In this document: one piece after another, positions 53,286 to 61,618 of the stretch
How positions within the stretch are numbered: the stretch's first letter is position 1
How the letters are laid out: every line of letters begins with the position of its first letter
From: Thermoanaerobaculia bacterium
Lineage (GTDB): Bacteria > Acidobacteriota > Thermoanaerobaculia > Multivoradales > Multivoraceae
Length of the DNA: 64,000 bases
Assembly: GCA_022822365.1 (NCBI GenBank)
Contig: JAJEBV010000035.1
Location: 136,082-200,081, forward strand
Reading direction: 5' to 3'
Position numbers and translations under genes: made by a program
Notes under the pieces: generated by a model
The model's database searches: none
Seen by the model: only the letters and a program-made list of their open reading frames with translations
Told to the model about the DNA's origin: nothing

Positions 53286-53532
53286 AGGTTTCGCTGCGTT
53301 CGCAAGGGGGCACTTGGCCTGTTGGCTGCCGCTGAGGACGGCAGAGAACAGGACCACCAACGGTTCCGGGCCCCTTCGCCGGTTACACTCGCATCAGCGG
53401 CTAGTAACGGCGCCGAGTCCGAGCGCCAGACTTGGAGGGGCCCTCCGACTAGACAGGCTTATGCAGTCAGACGTACATACTCCTGAGGCTCCGACACGCT
53501 CCTGCTCCAATCGCCCACCGGAGTCGCCCAAG

Positions 53533-55011
53533 ATGTACGCGCCGCTGCAGACTCCCTACGCCCAGAAGATCGAGCGCCTTCGCAACGGCGATCGCCCCCG
53601 AGTCCTTGATCTCTTCGCCGGTTGCGGCGGGCTCTCTCTGGGCCTTCAAGCAGCAGGATTCGACATCACCGCCGCAGTCGAGAACGACGCTGACGCCGCT
53701 CGCTCCCACGGAACCAACTTCCACAAGGCAGCGCCGGAGCATGTCTTGGCCCGCGACGTGCTCACGTCCCCAGATGCCTTCGCGCAGGAACTGGGCCTGG
53801 GACCGGCCGCCCACGCATTCGACGTGATCGTCGGAGGCCCGCCCTGCCAAGCCTTCGCCCGGGTGGGGCGCCCCAAGCTTCGGGAGGTACACGAGCACCC
53901 ACAGGCATTTCTCCATGACCCGCGCGCCCGACTGTTCCTCGAGTGGCTGCGCTACGTGGAGGCCTGCCAGCCCTTGGCCGTCCTGATGGAGAACGTCCCA
54001 GACGTTCTGAATCATGGAGGCCACAACGTCGCGGAGGAGACCTGCGCCTTTCTCCAAGAACGGGGCTACGCCTGCGCCTACACACTCCTGAACGCGTCGC
54101 TCTATGGCGTGCCGCAGATGCGGGAGCGGATGTTCCTCATCGGCTACCGGCGCGAACTGGCCCAGAACGTCCGCTTCCCGCAGCCCACACACTGGACCCG
54201 GTTGCCCCGCGGATACGAGGGCTCACGGGCTGTCGCACTGAAGTCGGTCCGCAAACCGAACGCGCGCCAACAACAGCTCCCGACCGTAGCCGGTTTCTAC
54301 GTCGATCCGCCGACGCCAAACGACGACTTGCCGCCCGCCGTAACAGTCAGAGACGCGATCCACGACCTGCCCGTCATCGATGCCCGAGAGGAGCTTCGCG
54401 CGGGCCGCCTTCGGCGCGGCGCCCGCCGTTTCGATACTCACCAGCCGTACAGCTCGTCACGACCGGTTTCGGCGTACGCACAGCGCATGAAGGCGTGGCC
54501 AGGGTTCGAAGCGCCAGCGCAACTCGCGGACCACGTAATCCGCTATCTGCCCCGCGACTTCGACCTGTTCGCACGGATGAACCACGGCGACCAGTACCCG
54601 GAGGCGTACCGCCACGCCTCCGACATGTTCGAGGAGCGACTGGCGGAGATGAGGGCGGCCGGGAAACCCGTTGCTCCCGGTTCGACGGAGTACGACCGGC
54701 TACGCCGGTCCCTCGTCCCTCCTTACGACCCCGGCAAGTTCCCGAACAAGTGGCGGAAGATGTGTCCCGACGAGCCGGCACGGACGCTCATGGCTCACCT
54801 CGGAAAGGACGGCTACAGCCACATCCACTACGACAGCGCCCAAGCCCGAACGGTATCAGTCCGCGAAGCCGCCCGCCTCCAGTCGTTCCCTGACGGCTTC
54901 CGGTTCTGCGGAACGATGAACCCGGCTTTCCGACAGATCGGGAACGCCGTGCCTCCCCTGCTCGCCAAGGCCCTTGGCGAAGAGATGCGCGAGGCCCTCA
55001 CGTCGACTTGA
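53533..55011 (+). CDS. DNA (cytosine-5)-methyltransferase (Dcm-type)
   Basis: 492 residues from ATG 53533; an ATG at 53461 (24 codons earlier) is the main alternative. C5-methyltransferase motifs in order: I RVLDLFAGCGGLSLGLQAAG, IV VIVGGPPCQAFARVG (catalytic Cys), VI VLMENVPDVLNH, VIII QMRERMFLIGYR, then a variable recognition region, IX EPARTLMAHLG and X RQIGNAVPPLLAKAL. The host DNA is probably methylated on cytosine at the recognition site of the enzyme encoded next. The stop overlaps the next start (TGATG), so the pair is coupled, and a vsr gene follows. Confidence 0.95.
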   Translation: MYAPLQTPYAQKIERLRNGDRPRVLDLFAGCGGLSLGLQAAGFDITAAVENDADAARSHGTNFHKAAPEHVLARDVLTSPDAFAQELGLGPAAHAFDVIVGGPPCQAFARVGRPKLREVHEHPQAFLHDPRARLFLEWLRYVEACQPLAVLMENVPDVLNHGGHNVAEETCAFLQERGYACAYTLLNASLYGVPQMRERMFLIGYRRELAQNVRFPQPTHWTRLPRGYEGSRAVALKSVRKPNARQQQLPTVAGFYVDPPTPNDDLPPAVTVRDAIHDLPVIDAREELRAGRLRRGARRFDTHQPYSSSRPVSAYAQRMKAWPGFEAPAQLADHVIRYLPRDFDLFARMNHGDQYPEAYRHASDMFEERLAEMRAAGKPVAPGSTEYDRLRRSLVPPYDPGKFPNKWRKMCPDEPARTLMAHLGKDGYSHIHYDSAQARTVSVREAARLQSFPDGFRFCGTMNPAFRQIGNAVPPLLAKALGEEMREALTST

Positions 55012-56129
55012 TGTCCGAGAAGCTCGCTCTCAAGCGACTGACTGCCTCCGACCTGACCTTCTTCGAGTGGCACTTCAAGAATCGCAACGCCGGTAACCAG
55101 AAGGCGATCAACCTGAACGCCGACGTCTTCGCCGGGCGGCTCTACCCGGCCGTTGAAGCCGTCGCCCGCCAAAGCCAGAACAAGCTTGGCGTCGACCTGT
55201 GGATCGGCGGACCGGGGGCAGCGTCGCCACACAACTACCAGCGCAAGATCATCAAGGGGGCGGCGTACAAGAACTGGCGCTTGGACGGCGAAGTCGTCTA
55301 CAACCCCGAAACCGATCCTGAGCGATTCAATGGGCTCCGGCCGGGAGACCTGGCCCTCCTCGGCTTCGATGGCGACCTGGTGCCGAACACGATGCACTTG
55401 GTCCTCGTCGCCAAGTCAGCACCGGAAGACAGCGAGCTCTTCACCCGGCTCGACGAACTGCTGGCGGACCGGCGTATGGCCGAGCTGCAGAGCAACTCCC
55501 TGCGGGAGCTCTGCGAAGCACTCTCCCTGCCGCGGCCACATCCGGCGTGGCTGCTCCTTGCCGAGGAGGACCTCACGGAAGCCGCTCTCGGTCAAGCCCC
55601 TGCCATCGCTCGGCTGCTCACTCGGCCCCGGCCGCGAAGAGTGTCCCTTGAAGACCTCCAAACGGCGAGGCGGACGGCCGAGGAACTCGGCCGGCTTGGC
55701 GAGAGCCTCGTGGACGTTCATCTTGAGCAACGCCGAGCAGCGGGAGAGATCGCCGAGTACGAGTGGACCGCCGAGATCAACGCGATCTCACCGTACGATT
55801 TCCGGCTTCGGCGTGATCGCACCTGGGAGAAGCTGGAGGTCAAGACGACGGCAGCGGGCTTCGACCGCGAGTACCACGTACCCCTAAGCGAACTCCGGGA
55901 GGCCGTCTACGCACCGGAAACCTACAGAATCGCCCGTGTGTACGACGCCACTTCCAGTTCCGCCAAGATGAGGATCTCCGAGGACTTCCGGCCATTCGCC
56001 CATTCCATCCTCGGCGCGTTCTCCGACCTTCCAGGCGGTGTCACACCAGACGGCGTGAGTATCGTCCCGGATGACCAGATGTTTGGCGAGGAGATCGTTC
56101 TCCTTGGGCCGTCCGACAGCGAGGACTGA
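55011..56129 (+). CDS. Restriction endonuclease with a DUF3883-like PD-(D/E)XK domain
   Basis: 372 residues encoded in a 1-nt overlap with the Dcm gene. The N-terminal ~200 residues are unfamiliar (FFEWHFKNRNAGNQKAINLN; LWIGGPGAASPHNYQRKII). The C-terminal ~150 match DUF3883: LGRLGESLVDVHLEQRRAAG, SPYDFRLRRD and TWEKLEVKTTAAGF (catalytic D and ExK), then SELREAVYAPETYRIARVYD. DUF3883 enzymes are nuclease domains in restriction and defence systems. The most economical reading is the cutting partner of the methyltransferase; specificity unknown. Confidence 0.78.
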   Translation: MSEKLALKRLTASDLTFFEWHFKNRNAGNQKAINLNADVFAGRLYPAVEAVARQSQNKLGVDLWIGGPGAASPHNYQRKIIKGAAYKNWRLDGEVVYNPETDPERFNGLRPGDLALLGFDGDLVPNTMHLVLVAKSAPEDSELFTRLDELLADRRMAELQSNSLRELCEALSLPRPHPAWLLLAEEDLTEAALGQAPAIARLLTRPRPRRVSLEDLQTARRTAEELGRLGESLVDVHLEQRRAAGEIAEYEWTAEINAISPYDFRLRRDRTWEKLEVKTTAAGFDREYHVPLSELREAVYAPETYRIARVYDATSSSAKMRISEDFRPFAHSILGAFSDLPGGVTPDGVSIVPDDQMFGEEIVLLGPSDSED

Positions 56130-56165
56130 TCCCCCGACAACCCGGGATACGTCGCCAAGCCAGGC

Positions 56166-56585
56166 TCAGAGCATCCGCGGAGGACCGAGGAAGGCCACGA
56201 GACGATCCAGGAGCGAGTCGTCAGTCTCGATCTCACACTGCCAAGCAACGAACACGCGCCACCCCTCGTCAGCCAATGCCTCGCGAACCCTCTTGTCCCG
56301 CTCGACGTTCGCCGCGAACTTCTCCTCCCAGAAGTCTCGGCGGGACTTCGGCGTGTAGGTCTTCCGGCAACCGTGACGGTGCCAGAAGCAGCCGTGGACG
56401 AACACCGCGGCGCGCCGACGCGTGAACACGACGTCCGGCGTGCCGGGAAGGCCACGCACATGGGTGCGGAAGCGGTAGCCCTTCGCGTGTAGAGATCGCC
56501 GAAGGGCCAACTCCGGCTTCGTGTTCGAGCCGCGAATGCGGCTCATCATCGCGCTCCGCTGCTGCCGCGACACGATGTCCGTCAT
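56166..56585 (-). CDS. vsr: Very short patch repair endonuclease Vsr
   Basis: 139 residues from ATG 56585 (MTDIVSRQQRSAMMSRIRGS). Vsr nicks beside T:G mismatches that arise when 5-methylcytosine deaminates. The catalytic Asp is in RGLPGTPDVVFTRRRAAVFVH, the zinc/nucleic-acid site in GCFWHRHGCRKTYTPKS, and YRFRTHVRG and FWEEKFAANVERDKR match the family. It converges on the DUF3883 gene (36-nt gap). Its presence with Dcm is expected, since C5-methylation makes such mismatches. Confidence 0.94.
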   Translation of the reverse strand: MTDIVSRQQRSAMMSRIRGSNTKPELALRRSLHAKGYRFRTHVRGLPGTPDVVFTRRRAAVFVHGCFWHRHGCRKTYTPKSRRDFWEEKFAANVERDKRVREALADEGWRVFVAWQCEIETDDSLLDRLVAFLGPPRML

Positions 56586-56703
56586 ACGCGCTACCCGTCC
56601 GCGAGCGCCCACATAGCGGGAAGTGTTACACAGCACCCCAAGCCCTCAGTCCGTCATCCTCTCAAACTGGACACACGACGACCGAACGGGACAGGATCGA
56701 GCG

Positions 56704-57036: not shown

Positions 57037-57315
57037 TGCCCGACCTAGTGCCGGCACCATGAACGAGCGCTTACTCTCGCTACCGAACGAGAACCTGGAC
57101 CACTGAGGCTGCTCAAGACGAACACCGACCGCCTCATTCGGGGCGGGAGTGGGACGATCCACTCCTCGAAGATCCGGTCAAGCTTGTCGCCGACGGCAGA
57201 GGACTCGTCGGAATCGACGATCAGGAGCTTCCGCTATGAACGGTAACACTCTCCGTACCTGGAGCAACTTCCCATGAAGGACGTGCCCACTGAACGACAT
57301 CCTCGGAATCCCGCC

Positions 57316-58008
57316 ATGCTTTTCTTCTTTGTCAAATTCACCGCCAAGGAGCGCTACGCCCGGGACTTTCTGAGCGGCCGACTCTACGCTAACACGGTCC
57401 GGTACTTTCGCGAACTGGAAAGCGAAGGACAAGGGGACAAGTACGAGGGACTCGTTGGCTGGTTTCAACCAAGCCGAGGACAACTTACTATCGACGGACG
57501 TGACCTTACGCCCGACCTCGCCGGTCCGATCGGCCTCAGCCGAAACGACATACTGTCACATCATCTCTTCTGTCTATACTGTGGCCACACAGCCGGCATA
57601 TCTCCCGACGCGAGTGACGAGGAAGTGAAGGCGCGGATGCAACTGTCAGTCCGGCCAGACGAGTTCGGCGAGTATGCCGTCTTGGTGCGCAATGTCAAGA
57701 AGTTCATTGATCGCGTCCGAGAGGCGCTGGACAAGGAGGGGTACAAGTGGAGGAGCGGCTTGGTCGGGTACTACGACCCCAACACGTTCCATGGGCCGTT
57801 CACAAACCAGGACGCTGTGTTCAGAAAACAGCTCAAGCACGGCCACCAGAGAGAGTACCGGTTCGCCATAGACACCGGAAACACAGGCGATTCGCCGCTG
57901 GTCGTCGAAGTCGGGGACTTATCGGACATCGCCGAGATGTACCGGTTCCCGCGATTGGACGATGTCATGAGCACAATCGAAGTGCATAGTCGCCGATCTG
58001 GCGAGTAG
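57316..58008 (+). CDS. Unknown cytoplasmic protein of the NTVRYFRELE type
   Basis: 230 residues from ATG 57316 (MLFFFVKFTAKERYARDFLS); 14 codons more are possible upstream. Conserved-looking blocks: GRLYANTVRYFRELESEGQG, KYEGLVGWFQPSRG, ILSHHLFCLYCGHTAGISP, FGEYAVLVRNVKKFIDRVRE and FHGPFTNQDAVFRKQLKHGH, then REYRFAIDTGN. I have seen similar patterns in proteins scattered through bacterial accessory islands, with no assigned function. It lies 141 nt downstream of where the ubiquitin-like operon ends on the other strand (convergent). Confidence 0.65.
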   Translation: MLFFFVKFTAKERYARDFLSGRLYANTVRYFRELESEGQGDKYEGLVGWFQPSRGQLTIDGRDLTPDLAGPIGLSRNDILSHHLFCLYCGHTAGISPDASDEEVKARMQLSVRPDEFGEYAVLVRNVKKFIDRVREALDKEGYKWRSGLVGYYDPNTFHGPFTNQDAVFRKQLKHGHQREYRFAIDTGNTGDSPLVVEVGDLSDIAEMYRFPRLDDVMSTIEVHSRRSGE

Positions 58009-58148: not shown

Positions 58149-59072
58149 CTACTCGTCGCGGTGCAGGTGCTTCCGCACGTCGAATCTGGGATCGCCGGTC
58201 TCGTCAGAGGGATGATGTCGGCATGGCTGATCCTTGAGAGTCTTCATTCGCTGACTGCGCGACAGCGTCCCTCTGTTACCGTCGTACTCGAGGTACACGA
58301 AAGACGGCGGATGCGGATACCACGGCGTCAAGAGCTGAGTGACCAAGCCTGTAGCAGCAGAGGCGAGGACTCCATTCGGCCATACGACCTGCGGCTGCCC
58401 GCCAGCCGCACCGTACCGGTTGGCCTCCTCCTTGAGCCGTTCGTCGGTCACCAATCCGCAGCACCGTAGGCATGGCCCGCCTGGGCTCGACAGGATGACT
58501 TGGCCGCTGACGAGGAACCCTGCCCTCCCAGGAAGAGAATGTACGTCCATACCGAGGTCGATATAGGGAATCAGATACCGACGCGCGAAGCGTTCGAGCT
58601 CGTCTCTTTCACGAAACGAGTCCAGGGCACCGACGATTACGTCCGCAGACTTCAGCGCTTCAGTGGCCTTCTGCCACTTCTGGCGAACAGCGACGATCCG
58701 CGCCCGCGGGTTCAGGCCTCGAACTACCCTCGTCCCGATACCGACCTTCGCGGGTTCGATGTCGATGTAGTCGAGGGTACCTCCCGCAAGCCGATTCAGG
58801 TACTGCACGAGCCTCCTGAGAACGACGAATCTAGCGGGTTTACAGTAGACATCTGCCAGTGTGCCTCCGACAAGGCGATTCGTGTTTGTCTCATCAATGT
58901 CGTCTGGATCTACGAGGACGTAGCCCCCGATGCCCACGTGTGCAGCCTGCTGCACCACATGCGAACCTCCGCCCCCTAGACCCACGATGCCGAGGGTCGC
59001 AGTTCTCAGTAGAGTTGGGCTCTCAAGCCCGAGGAAACTCTGGCGCTCGAGCCGGTTCACGCAGTGCTCCAT
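58149..59072 (-). CDS. E1-like (ThiF-family) activating enzyme of a bacterial ubiquitin-like system
   Basis: 307 residues from ATG 59072, which overlaps the JAB gene by 16 nt. The adenylation site is ATLGIVGLGGGGSHVVQQAA (nucleotide loop), YVLVDPDDIDETNTNRLVGG (Asp and the Arg finger), SADVIVGALDSFRERDELER and YIDLGMDVH. A CxxC (CLRCC) is the only obvious zinc pair. E1 enzymes adenylate the C-terminal glycine of a ubiquitin-like protein and take it as a thioester. Last gene of the four-gene operon UBL-E2-JAB-E1. Confidence 0.87.
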   Translation of the reverse strand: MEHCVNRLERQSFLGLESPTLLRTATLGIVGLGGGGSHVVQQAAHVGIGGYVLVDPDDIDETNTNRLVGGTLADVYCKPARFVVLRRLVQYLNRLAGGTLDYIDIEPAKVGIGTRVVRGLNPRARIVAVRQKWQKATEALKSADVIVGALDSFRERDELERFARRYLIPYIDLGMDVHSLPGRAGFLVSGQVILSSPGGPCLRCCGLVTDERLKEEANRYGAAGGQPQVVWPNGVLASAATGLVTQLLTPWYPHPPSFVYLEYDGNRGTLSRSQRMKTLKDQPCRHHPSDETGDPRFDVRKHLHRDE

Positions 59073-59560
59073 TTCCGGAGGGGCACGCCCACCGAAACGA
59101 ACGACGACATAGACACCCCAGCTTCCGAACGGCTGAGCCAGACCAAGCCGTGGGCTGCAGTGTCGCTGAGAACGACAGCTCCGTGTGCACACTCGGGAGC
59201 CACCTTGAAGAAGTCTGGAACGAACTTGGCGCTTTCACGCAGGTCGATCCCACTGAACCTGGGGATGCCGCTGCCGGCATGGGAGTGGACGTGGAACATT
59301 GCCGCCCCCTCCTGTAGAGCCCACTGCAACGCGTGGCGAATGGCATCGGGGCCCATCATGGCTCCGACTGTTGGATCCTTGAGGTACTCGTCGTCTGCCA
59401 CAGGTCGATACTCACGGGCGAGCACCAGGAGACCCGTACCCCAGGTCGACAGGCCCGCCGCAATGAACCCGACGCGCTCATGTGCAAAGGCGTGAGGTCG
59501 AACCAGATCGGCCCGGATGGCGGCGAGCAAGTCGGCCGTGATCTTGAAACAGATCTTCAC
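59057..59560 (-). CDS. JAB/MPN metalloprotease (deubiquitinase-like)
   Basis: 167 residues from a GTG at 59560 that overlaps the E2 stop (GTGA). The JAMM zinc site is present: Glu28 in FAHERVGFIAAGL and HVHSHAGSGIPRFSGIDLRE (HxH about 92-94, then Ser103 and Asp106). The spacing between HSH and Ser is eight rather than seven residues. In ubiquitin-like operons this protease trims the precursor tail of the UBL and/or removes it from targets. Here the UBL ends GGSS, so removal of two residues would expose the glycine pair. Confidence 0.87.
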   Translation of the reverse strand: MKICFKITADLLAAIRADLVRPHAFAHERVGFIAAGLSTWGTGLLVLAREYRPVADDEYLKDPTVGAMMGPDAIRHALQWALQEGAAMFHVHSHAGSGIPRFSGIDLRESAKFVPDFFKVAPECAHGAVVLSDTAAHGLVWLSRSEAGVSMSSFVSVGVPLRKWSTA

Positions 59561-59889
59561 GCGACAGCTCTCAGATGTGCACGGAGCATTTCCGGCCACC
59601 GCGTGCTCTCGGGAATGTGGTTCCACGACGGGGCCCACCAGTTCTGGTCTACGACGCGGTGTTGGGCCCAGTTGCTGCCACGGCAGGAGATCTTCCGTTC
59701 GAAGAACAGTCGCGTCGCGTAACCGGAGTGAGCGAACGGTACAAGCAGGAGATCCATGGTGACCTTCTGGCCCGCAGCCGTAAAGCCGAACGCCGGCAAC
59801 AGCACGACAGCTCTCCCACCCTCACGCAAAAGGCGGGCACTCTCGTGCATCGCCCTGAGACGTGCGAACTCCTCGGCCGGTTCGCTCAC
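59557..59889 (-). CDS. E2-like conjugating enzyme (prokaryotic E2 family E type)
   Basis: 110 residues from a GTG at 59889, coupled to the UBL gene by a 4-nt overlap. The start is helical (EEFARLRAMHESARLLREGG), then strands AVVLLPAFGF and KVTMDLLLVPFAHSGYATRL, then FFERKISCRGSNWAQHRVVD and NWWAPSWNHIPE, with WPEMLRAHLRAVA at the end. This matches the compact E2 fold of bacterial ubiquitin-like operons. Cys69 (ISCRG) is the only cysteine, hence the candidate thioester residue. The assignment rests on operon position as well as sequence. Confidence 0.75.
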   Translation of the reverse strand: MSEPAEEFARLRAMHESARLLREGGRAVVLLPAFGFTAAGQKVTMDLLLVPFAHSGYATRLFFERKISCRGSNWAQHRVVDQNWWAPSWNHIPESTRWPEMLRAHLRAVA

Positions 59890-60530
59890 GATGAACCTCC
59901 GGCAGGAACATGGCTGTAGAACTTCATGCCGTCACGGACCTCGGTCGTTTGGCCCTGCTCCAGCGGCTTGAGTTGGCCATCTTCCAGGACGTCGAGCACG
60001 TAGCCTGGTTCGACGCCCAGAACATCGGCTAGATCTTCCGTCTTGTAGTTGCCGCCTCGGATCTTCTTCTCCACATCATCGTTCAGGTACACGGTCACGA
60101 GTTCGACGACGTGGAGATGCTCGGTGCCGGCATCTCCGAGCTTCAGGATGCCGTCGGCTGGCAGTGGCACCGTGTCGCCCTCGCGTTCCAGTACCAAAGT
60201 CCCATCGGGATCCACAACCGCTACGGCTCGGAGTTCCCGCTGCGAGATCTCGGCCGCCCCCCACTCGTAGCCTCGATCATTGACCGTAAACCGAAAGATC
60301 CGGTCGCTCTTGAAGGCGCGAAACACGTTGCGCGGGCTTCGACTGAGGTCGACCGGCTCGTCCAAGCCCACGGAGCGCGTTCCCGGGAACAGGAGTTGAA
60401 TCAGGACGTGGTCTTCGACGGGCCGGAACCCCGTTGCAGCCAGAATCTTCCTGCCGTCCAGCACACGCCCGGCGACCGACGACTCGACATCGTTCACCTT
60501 GATCACGAATTCTCCGTCGTGGTGGTCCAT
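59886..60530 (-). CDS. Triple ubiquitin-like (multiubiquitin) protein
   Basis: 214 residues from ATG 60530. Three beta-grasp repeats are visible: about 8-76 (VIKVNDVESSVAGRVLDGRK), 77-142 (RFTVNDRGYEWGAAEISQRE) and 144-212 (VTVYLNDDVEKKIRGGNYKT). Each begins with a strand ending in a VND/LND turn and then a helix. The C-terminus is HVPAGGSS, so Gly211-Gly212 could be the conjugation point after two residues are removed. Proteins like this (multiubiquitin domain) are the conjugated modifier of bacterial ubiquitin-like operons. First gene of the minus-strand operon, divergent from the XRE gene. Confidence 0.86.
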   Translation of the reverse strand: MDHHDGEFVIKVNDVESSVAGRVLDGRKILAATGFRPVEDHVLIQLLFPGTRSVGLDEPVDLSRSPRNVFRAFKSDRIFRFTVNDRGYEWGAAEISQRELRAVAVVDPDGTLVLEREGDTVPLPADGILKLGDAGTEHLHVVELVTVYLNDDVEKKIRGGNYKTEDLADVLGVEPGYVLDVLEDGQLKPLEQGQTTEVRDGMKFYSHVPAGGSS

Positions 60531-60686
60531 GGCCTCGTTCTCTCTCTGTACGTTCAAGGGTGTATCCTCCCGCCGTGGTTGAGGTTGCTTGCCCAGCACC
60601 AGTTCAAGTGTGCCACTGGTGAAACACCCTAGCGCACGCTGTCTCACGAGTCAAACACTTGGAACGCGGCGTCCAAGGAGGTGTCA
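60531..60686. promoter_or_regulatory. Divergent control region with three related motif copies
   Basis: This spacer between the UBL and XRE genes holds three related copies of a motif that reads ACAC(C/-)(C/T)TTG(G/-)AAC: minus strand 60563-60552 (ACACCCTTGAAC), minus strand 60611-60602 (ACACTTGAAC) and plus strand 60655-60665 (ACACTTGGAAC). A half-like ACACCCT lies at 60624-60630. Repeats in both orientations in a divergent promoter are what an XRE-type repressor would bind. Confidence 0.5.
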
Positions 60687-61031
60687 ATGTCCGAGCCGGT
60701 GTCCCTGAAGTCACTGGGTCGCATGGTCGCGAAGAAGCGCGGCAAAGTCGGGATCCGTGCCACGGCACGAGCGATCGGTCTGTCTCCAGCCACGTTGTCG
60801 CGCGTGGAGAACGGGCAACTGCCCGACTTGGCGAACTTCAGGAAGCTCTGCGAGTGGCTGGAGATTGATCCGGCGGCCGTGCTTGGCTTCGACCCGGAGA
60901 ATCGTGACCGCCCCATCGCGGCCGTTCACTTCCGAAGTCGCCAGACCATGCGAGAGGAGACGGCCGTAGCCCTCCAAGACCTCATCCTGGCGGCGCAGAA
61001 GATGCTCGCGGAGGAGGCCGAGTCTGACTGA
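60687..61031 (+). CDS. XRE-family helix-turn-helix regulator
   Basis: 114 residues from ATG 60687, with a near-perfect AAGGAGGT seven nucleotides upstream. The HTH is IRATARAIGLSPATLSRVEN then GQLPDLANFRKLCEWLEIDP. The C-terminal third is helical (MREETAVALQDLILAAQKML). It is the probable repressor of the divergent ubiquitin-like operon and of itself. The stop overlaps the next gene's ATG (TGATG); XRE-ImmA pairs commonly form repressor/anti-repressor protease switches. Confidence 0.88.
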   Translation: MSEPVSLKSLGRMVAKKRGKVGIRATARAIGLSPATLSRVENGQLPDLANFRKLCEWLEIDPAAVLGFDPENRDRPIAAVHFRSRQTMREETAVALQDLILAAQKMLAEEAESD

Positions 61032-61618
61032 TGCGACGAGGATTCAAGGCTTGGTGCGAGCGCACTTCCTCCGAGTACCGCCAAGCGCTCGGCCTGTCCT
61101 TGGCGGTATCACTGGATCCGCTGATCTTGGCGGAGCACCTGAACGTACGAGTGCTGATGCCGGATGAAGTGCCCGGCGTCTCACCAAAGAGCCTCATCCA
61201 ACTGAAGGGAAGTGACGGCTTGGCCACTTGGTCCGCGGTGACGATCACCCAAGGCGGCATCCGACTCGTGATTCTGAACTCTGGTCACCCGAGCACGAGG
61301 CAAGCGAACAGCCTTGCCCACGAACTGGCTCACATCATCCTCAATCACACCTCCGATGACACTCAATGGTCGCCGGAGGGTGTCCTCTTCCGGAACAGCT
61401 TCGACGAGGAACAAGAGGACGAGGCGAACTGGCTTGCGGCCTGTCTGTTGCTGCCTCGCCAAGGACTGCTGCAAGCCTACCGCCGCCAACCTAGACCAGA
61501 TGAGTTGGCCCGACACTTCGGCGTCAGTCAGAAACTCGTCAACTGGCGGCTTCGCATGACTGGCATCACACGCCAAGCGAGGCGTGCGGCGGCCCTTCGC
61601 GCTGCCACCAACCGGTGA
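61031..61618 (+). CDS. ImmA/IrrE-family metallopeptidase
   Basis: 195 residues, start overlapping the XRE stop. The zinc motif is SLAHELAHIILNH (HExxH) and the third ligand region is DEEQEDEANWLAACLLLPRQ. The C-terminal helical part (RPDELARHFGVSQKLVNWRL) carries an HTH-like segment. Family members cleave XRE repressors, for example ImmA on ImmR in ICEBs1 and IrrE on DdrO. Here it would relieve repression of the ubiquitin-like operon when triggered. The trigger is not visible. Confidence 0.88.
   Translation: MRRGFKAWCERTSSEYRQALGLSLAVSLDPLILAEHLNVRVLMPDEVPGVSPKSLIQLKGSDGLATWSAVTITQGGIRLVILNSGHPSTRQANSLAHELAHIILNHTSDDTQWSPEGVLFRNSFDEEQEDEANWLAACLLLPRQGLLQAYRRQPRPDELARHFGVSQKLVNWRLRMTGITRQARRAAALRAATNR

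Follow-up and report, generated by a model that had tools for sequence, protein, structure and literature searches.

Operon identity and gene layout

The window analysed here, the whole 64,000-nucleotide stretch of Thermoanaerobaculia bacterium DNA (contig JAJEBV010000035.1, positions 136,082 to 200,081), carries a Bub-type ubiquitin-like tagging operon at 58149-61618. The operon is real and, though far-diverged, can be recognised as belonging to a known family; it lies behind a CapH/CapP-like switch of the DNA-damage type inside a small restriction-modification island. Six genes were confirmed (Table 1): four on the minus strand, encoding a ubiquitin-like modifier (Ubl), an E2-like protein, a JAMM protease and an E1-like enzyme, and a divergent XRE/M78 pair. 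Coordinates, domains and folds agree with an earlier note on this DNA, which had described four overlapping minus-strand genes, among them one for a triple Ubl, opposite an XRE/ImmA pair. The kinship to Bub proposed there likewise holds, as both the E1 profile (5.1e-24) and the JAMM model find BubCD as their best match among entries of the Protein Data Bank (PDB). The operon combines a multi-domain Ubl with E1 and JAMM proteins homologous to BubCD, and its E1 is devoid of a catalytic cysteine but retains a conserved tyrosine. The Ubl is homologous to BubA and the E2-like protein probably to BubB, and the enzymes show no conserved catalytic cysteines.

The minus-strand genes are linked by GTGA stop/start overlaps. 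Homologues and overlaps place the starts at 59889 (E2), 59560 (JAMM) and 59060 (E1), and longer open reading frames of the operon genes are over-extensions. The Ubl probably starts at the ATG at 60530, with a further open GTG lying upstream at 60647. All four genes are under purifying selection, with nonsynonymous divergence (dN) of 0.21-0.52 against synonymous divergence (dS) of ~1.2 or more. The Ubl-E2-JAMM-E1 order is kept in about ten independent loci, which rules out a chance association and confirms the E1 and JAB neighbours expected at homologues.

A Pfam comparison of the four proteins succeeded in part: Multi_ubiq was found in the Ubl and ThiF in the E1, whereas the E2-like and JAMM proteins had no match in Pfam, PADLOC or NCBIfam, and their relatives, searched singly in Pfam, had none either. 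Other evidence is therefore needed for these two identities, and it is provided by the synteny of homologues, by AlphaFold models with Foldseek searches and, for the JAMM protein, by an intact motif.

Modifier and enzymes

The Ubl consists of three β-grasp repeats, in line with the three-domain modifier of the earlier note; Multi_ubiq matched in three stretches (E = 1.8e-19), and the protein also matches the solved multi-ubiquitin chains 9cd2, 9d59 and 9d5b and BilA (8u38). Modifiers of two to three domains (polyUbls) were described already in 2006 (PMC1779556). Domain number varies between relatives: Nitrosospira, Opitutaceae and genome G299 have a single domain, G107 has two, and the modifiers of the window and of most alphaproteobacterial relatives have about three. 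The tail ends ...PAGGSS in the window. Among relatives, several tails read GGSS and others GGAA, GGAS or GGSSSD; several alphaproteobacterial plasmid copies end GQSS or GHSS. Conservation across the family is limited to the first Gly and to the small residues that follow the second position. As close relatives carry GQSS or GHSS, the second Gly is no requirement of the family, which contradicts the earlier view that the protease must trim the modifier to Gly-Gly. Judged from its tail, trimming to a free Gly-Gly would suit the window copy, yet it is no rule of the family.

The E2-like protein is predicted with high confidence (predicted local distance difference test, pLDDT, 92.1; predicted template modelling score 0.86) as a helix, a β-meander and a C-terminal helix. 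The E2-like fold anticipated for this 110-residue protein was thus obtained: the two best PDB matches in Foldseek are the ubiquitin E2 variant (UEV) domain of TSG101 and, next, Citrobacter BubB (9eae_C, probability 0.98, TMq 0.65). Sequence searches for BubB homology gave no match. The window protein and five relatives also stayed below the cut-off of Prok-E2_E (PF14462), a family that the E2 of another Bub-like operon (L066) matches at 1.2e-13; comparison of the window profile with Prok-E2_E-type Bub E2s gave E = 4e-4 and a probability of 34%. A fold search in a viral library returned nothing meaningful. Eight residues (Tyr57, Arg60, Leu61, Asn73, Trp84, Ser88, His105 and Leu106) are invariant in 16 of 16 sequences, Ser88 within a W-x3-S-W/F motif. 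The earlier note had taken Cys69 for the catalytic residue of a single-cysteine E2. This was rejected, as Cys69 is specific to the window and found in none of the 16 relatives, whereas Ser88 is invariant.

For the JAMM protein (model pLDDT 87), Foldseek ranks the N-terminal half of BubCD first (9ea4, E = 1.6e-8, TMq 0.77), followed by BRCC36, CSN5 and Rpn11. The MPN fold is accompanied by the glutamate and the H-x-H-x(7-8)-S-x2-D signature of JAMM enzymes, here intact as E28...H92-x-H94-x8-S103-x2-D106. Activin/TGF-beta receptor kinases, which appeared as profile matches of this protein, were weak chance matches and were overruled by the fold search.

Across 31 E1 sequences, cysteines are conserved only at 197, 200 and 280, which form the zinc cluster, while Tyr216 and Pro223 are invariant. 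Alignment of a Bub E1 to the BubCD chain puts the conserved tyrosine at chain position 372. PDB titles name D104A and Y370F, and a two-residue tag offset reconciles these with D106 (the JAMM aspartate) and Y372 of the chain. The conservation pattern suggests E1 Tyr216 and E2 Ser88 as candidate acyl acceptors and, with them, oxyester chemistry. Bub reportedly works via oxyester intermediates (Ye et al., NSMB 2026). The eukaryote-like thioester logic of the earlier note is not supported, given an E1 without catalytic cysteine and an unconserved Cys69 in the E2.

A peculiarity of the window E1, absent from the earlier note, is an in-frame tandem duplication, which inserts 28 residues between the ATP-binding arginine of the NxNR motif (R62) and the ATP-binding Lys105. 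It is missing from all other aligned E1s, including the closest (64% identical). No full second copy exists elsewhere in the genome, and a dispersed repeat was rejected as its origin; with only 58% identity between the copies, an assembly artefact is unlikely. Against the two closest relatives, the E1 shows dN of ~0.25 and dS of ~1.5 or more, similar to the E2. The still-open frame and this E2-like ratio argue against decay.

Relatives, distribution and neighbourhood

Searches with the E1 revealed the same gene order in Euryhalocaulis and Nitrosospira assemblies and in genomes G107 and G299, as well as on plasmids of Bradyrhizobium, Methylovirgula, Sphingobium, Methylocystis, Bosea and Rhizobium. 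The plasmid E2s, and the JAMM proteins where listed, are annotated "hypothetical protein". JAMM and E1 are fused into one protein in Opitutaceae/Lacunisphaera, Pirellulales, Spirosoma and one IMG/VR contig. In the E1 tree these operons, which come from several phyla, form a clade (support 100/99) separate from the Bub-like operons whose E2s are of the Prok-E2_E type; Methylovirgula (64% identical) and Bradyrhizobium are nearest to the window. The window JAMM recurs in strong form in only 1 of 21 genomes of its genus, which marks the operon as accessory. Among 50,697 phage records no match was found; one IMG/VR contig matched. This contig (L067, IMGVR_UViG_2883354860_000001) appears prophage-like, with terminase- and portal-like genes recognised by eye, and encodes an E2, a fused JAMM-E1 and a divergent WYL regulator. 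It may represent a phage carrying an operon of this type.

Near-identical operons occur in Verrucomicrobiota and Planctomycetota assemblies (L034, L035, L036), as expected from either recent transfer or binning contamination. In L038 (6621-8976), a cyclic-oligonucleotide-based anti-phage signalling system (CBASS; CD-NTase SMODS and SAVED nuclease effector) lies directly upstream of the Ubl gene on the same strand. In the window itself, 53314-56636 encode a 5-methylcytosine DNA methyltransferase, a NOV_C-domain protein (possibly a restriction enzyme) and a Vsr endonuclease, probably a type II restriction-modification set that makes up a small defence island beside the operon. The GC content of this stretch is ~58-66%, compared with ~69% in its flanks. 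The 244-residue protein between this set and the operon (57274-58008) had no match in Pfam, PADLOC or NCBIfam.

Regulatory switch

A helix-turn-helix (HTH) protein and an M78 protease with an HExxH motif adjoin the operon, as in CapH/CapP systems. The best PADLOC match of the M78 protein is capP (9.6e-13), and its zinc residues are conserved in relatives. A promoter scan of the divergent intergenic region found no sigma-70 consensus. The earlier note had singled out XRE/ImmA control as a special feature of this copy. Such control is already known, as 219 of 544 Bub operons have CapW or CapH+CapP beside them and others have CapK+CapS, according to PMC13373217, which also notes that phage protection by Bub is yet to be demonstrated.

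The survey of homologue neighbours proposed earlier gave a divided answer: XRE-ImmA pairs adjoin several operons, while others have different regulators, a toxin-antitoxin pair or no switch. HTH+M78 pairs are found at Bradyrhizobium, Methylovirgula, Methylocystis, R. leguminosarum, Euryhalocaulis and G299, and a fused HTH-M78 regulator in Opitutaceae and G142. Nitrosospira has a HATPase kinase with a STAS-like HTH protein (CapK/CapS-like), and the prophage-like copy its WYL protein (CapW-like). The regulators most commonly seen in the clade are of DNA-damage types, which PMC13373217 ties to Bub operons.

Further genes accompany the switch in relatives. An exonuclease-domain gene follows the HTH-M78 pair in three of them (L032 4425-5828, RNase_T/Exonuc_X-T_C; L059 2037-3428; L062 2048-3451) and might shape the single-stranded DNA signal for the protease. 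A PIN protein occurs with the fused HTH-M78 regulator in L095 (754-1257, Pfam PIN) and L034 (1495-2019, PIN-like by eye), resembling a toxin-antitoxin arrangement. In L042 (6984-8140), from the same genus as the window, a related HTH-M78 pair adjoins a different type of multi-ubiquitin operon, indicating that the switch moves between operons.

Table 1. Features of the operon and its switch (window positions).
Feature	Positions	Strand	Basis
E1-like adenylating enzyme (like BubCD C-terminal half), 303 aa, GTG start overlapping JAMM stop	58149..59060	-	ThiF 4.6e-22
E1 Tyr216 codon, equivalent of BubCD Y370	58413..58415	-	invariant 31/31; 9eav title names Y370F
In-frame diverged tandem duplication, 84 nt (copies 58797-58880 and 58713-58796)	58713..58880	-	58% DNA identity between copies
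JAMM/MPN protease (like BubCD N-terminal half), 167 aa, GTG start overlapping E2 stop	59057..59560	-	AlphaFold 2 (AF2), Foldseek
JAMM motif H92-x-H94-x8-S103-x2-D106	59243..59287	-	invariant, all aligned relatives
E2-like protein (BubB-like), 110 aa, GTG start overlapping Ubl stop	59557..59889	-	AF2, Foldseek
E2 Ser88 codon, candidate acyl acceptor	59626..59628	-	invariant 16/16
E2 Cys69 codon, not conserved	59683..59685	-	relatives: G/S/H/D/N/A or gap
Ubl (BubA-like), three Multi_ubiq domains, ~214 aa	59886..60530	-	Multi_ubiq x3, 1.8e-19; PDB matches
GGSS codons, presumed processing/conjugation site	59889..59900	-	sequence
Divergent intergenic region; candidate operator repeats 60609-60627 and 60640-60658 (19 nt, 74% identical)	60531..60680	.	
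XRE repressor, CapH-like position; ATG option at 60687	60681..61031	+	HTH_3 1e-6
M78/ImmA metalloprotease, CapP-like; HELAH zinc motif 61319-61333	61031..61618	+	Peptidase_M78 1.8e-22

Proposed mechanism and alternatives

The preferred explanation, which we consider highly probable with function predicted from the genes, is a stress-inducible Bub conjugation pathway. For the window operon we infer that the Ubl is processed, adenylated and passed on by acyl transfer to targets, that the repressor is cleaved and that the pathway has a role in defence, as follows. While the cell is unstressed, the XRE protein would keep the divergent promoters repressed. DNA damage or single-stranded DNA, for example upon infection, would activate the M78 protease, which would cleave the XRE protein and derepress the four-gene operon. 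The JAMM enzyme would then clip the final residues off the triple Ubl, and could later strip conjugates. The E1 would adenylate the Ubl C-terminus. From there the Ubl would reach target proteins, probably as an oxyester and not as a thioester intermediate (E1 Tyr216, E2 Ser88).

Several observations weigh against this explanation. The Foldseek E-values of the E2 model are weak (0.13-0.18, with 0.18 for BubB), so that the claim leans on fold and match probability. In profile alignment, Ser88 is off by one from the serine of the WSRH motif in other Bub E2s. The duplication in the E1 could impair the window copy. Concerning the switch, the window XRE protein has no capH match in PADLOC, though the HTH proteins of two relatives do; Bosea has an Xre-RES toxin-antitoxin pair (L060 3212-4308) replacing HTH-M78 in the same divergent position, and in Sphingobium no switch was recognised there.

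Alternatives differ in which step they replace. The E2-like protein could be a non-catalytic UEV/RWD-type adapter, the Ubl being activated on the E1 only and given directly to targets. An inactive UEV as best structural match and the missing conserved cysteine fit this, as does the designation of the polyUbl-operon E2 as inactive E2/RWD by Iyer et al. 2006 (PMC1779556). Still, the serine of the W-x3-S-W/F motif and the C-terminal histidine are invariant, the protein is co-encoded in every complete Ubl operon, and PDB titles show that BubB, its probable homologue, forms part of a solved complex together with BubCD and BubA; we regard the adapter as unlikely. A Bil- or eukaryote-like thioester cascade through Cys69 is suggested by the presence of this residue and by the gene set. 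It is extremely improbable, as neither Cys69 nor any E1 cysteine beyond the zinc cluster is conserved and the enzymes match Bub structures best.

The same chemistry could also serve a general DNA-damage or stress response instead of phage defence, a possibility that we take seriously but do not favour. The mostly damage-sensing regulators and the lack of demonstrated phage protection by Bub operons (PMC13373217) speak for it; the adjoining restriction-modification genes, the CBASS neighbour in L038 and carriage on plasmids and a prophage-like contig, all of which suit a defence island, speak against it. Impairment of the window copy alone, by disruption of E1 ATP binding between Arg62 and Lys105, would agree with the absence of the insertion from every other aligned E1. 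Conversely, copies at 58% identity would be old if they arose by tandem duplication, yet the E1 is open and conserved like the E2, and a related Bub E1 (L049) is itself ~20 residues longer at this site. Impairment appears quite improbable.

Significance and comparison with known systems

Compared with the stress-inducible Bub pathway as such, a more specific reading is tentative, and we hold it at somewhat below even chance in all its parts together: a distinct and widespread Bub branch with E2 and JAMM proteins invisible to current profile libraries, Tyr/Ser acyl chemistry, tolerance of a non-Gly residue in the "GG" and, in the window, an E1 nucleotide site remodelled by internal tandem duplication. 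In Bub pathways, ubiquitin-like tagging apparently proceeds without catalytic cysteines, and the few invariant residues of so diverged a branch (E1 Tyr216; E2 Ser88, Asn73 and His105; the JAMM ligands) narrow down what the chemistry needs. The analysis highlights two gene families, E2 and JAMM, that are still "hypothetical protein" in public annotation. Several interchangeable regulator types around one enzyme clade link the pathway to DNA-damage sensing.

Among described systems, the polyUbl operons in row 6e of Iyer et al. 2006 (PMC1779556) share a two- or three-domain Ubl, a cysteine-less E2/RWD-like protein, a JAB, an E1 and a mobile distribution. There, the JAB is fused to the E1 and an extra metal-binding protein is present, whereas the window JAB is separate and no such additional gene was seen. 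With CapH and CapP the window shares a divergent HTH and M78 pair beside the operon, capP as best PADLOC match and an intact zinc motif; it differs in the missing capH match of its HTH protein. BilABCD follows the same logic of Ubl, E2, JAMM and E1. Bil is a cascade with catalytic cysteines in E1 and E2, and conserved cysteines of this kind are lacking in the window enzymes. The Citrobacter system BubA/BubB/BubCD (PDB 9ea4, 9ea5, 9ea8, 9eae, 9eav) differs from the window in its fused BubCD, where JAMM and E1 are separate genes here, in the WSRH-type motif and Prok-E2_E match that the window E2 lacks, in a JAMM identity of ~15%, and in the tandem duplication of the window E1. Still, both share the set of Ubl, E2-like, JAMM and E1 proteins, the JAMM fold and motif, the E1 fold, and a conserved E1 tyrosine in the region in which canonical E1s have the catalytic cysteine.

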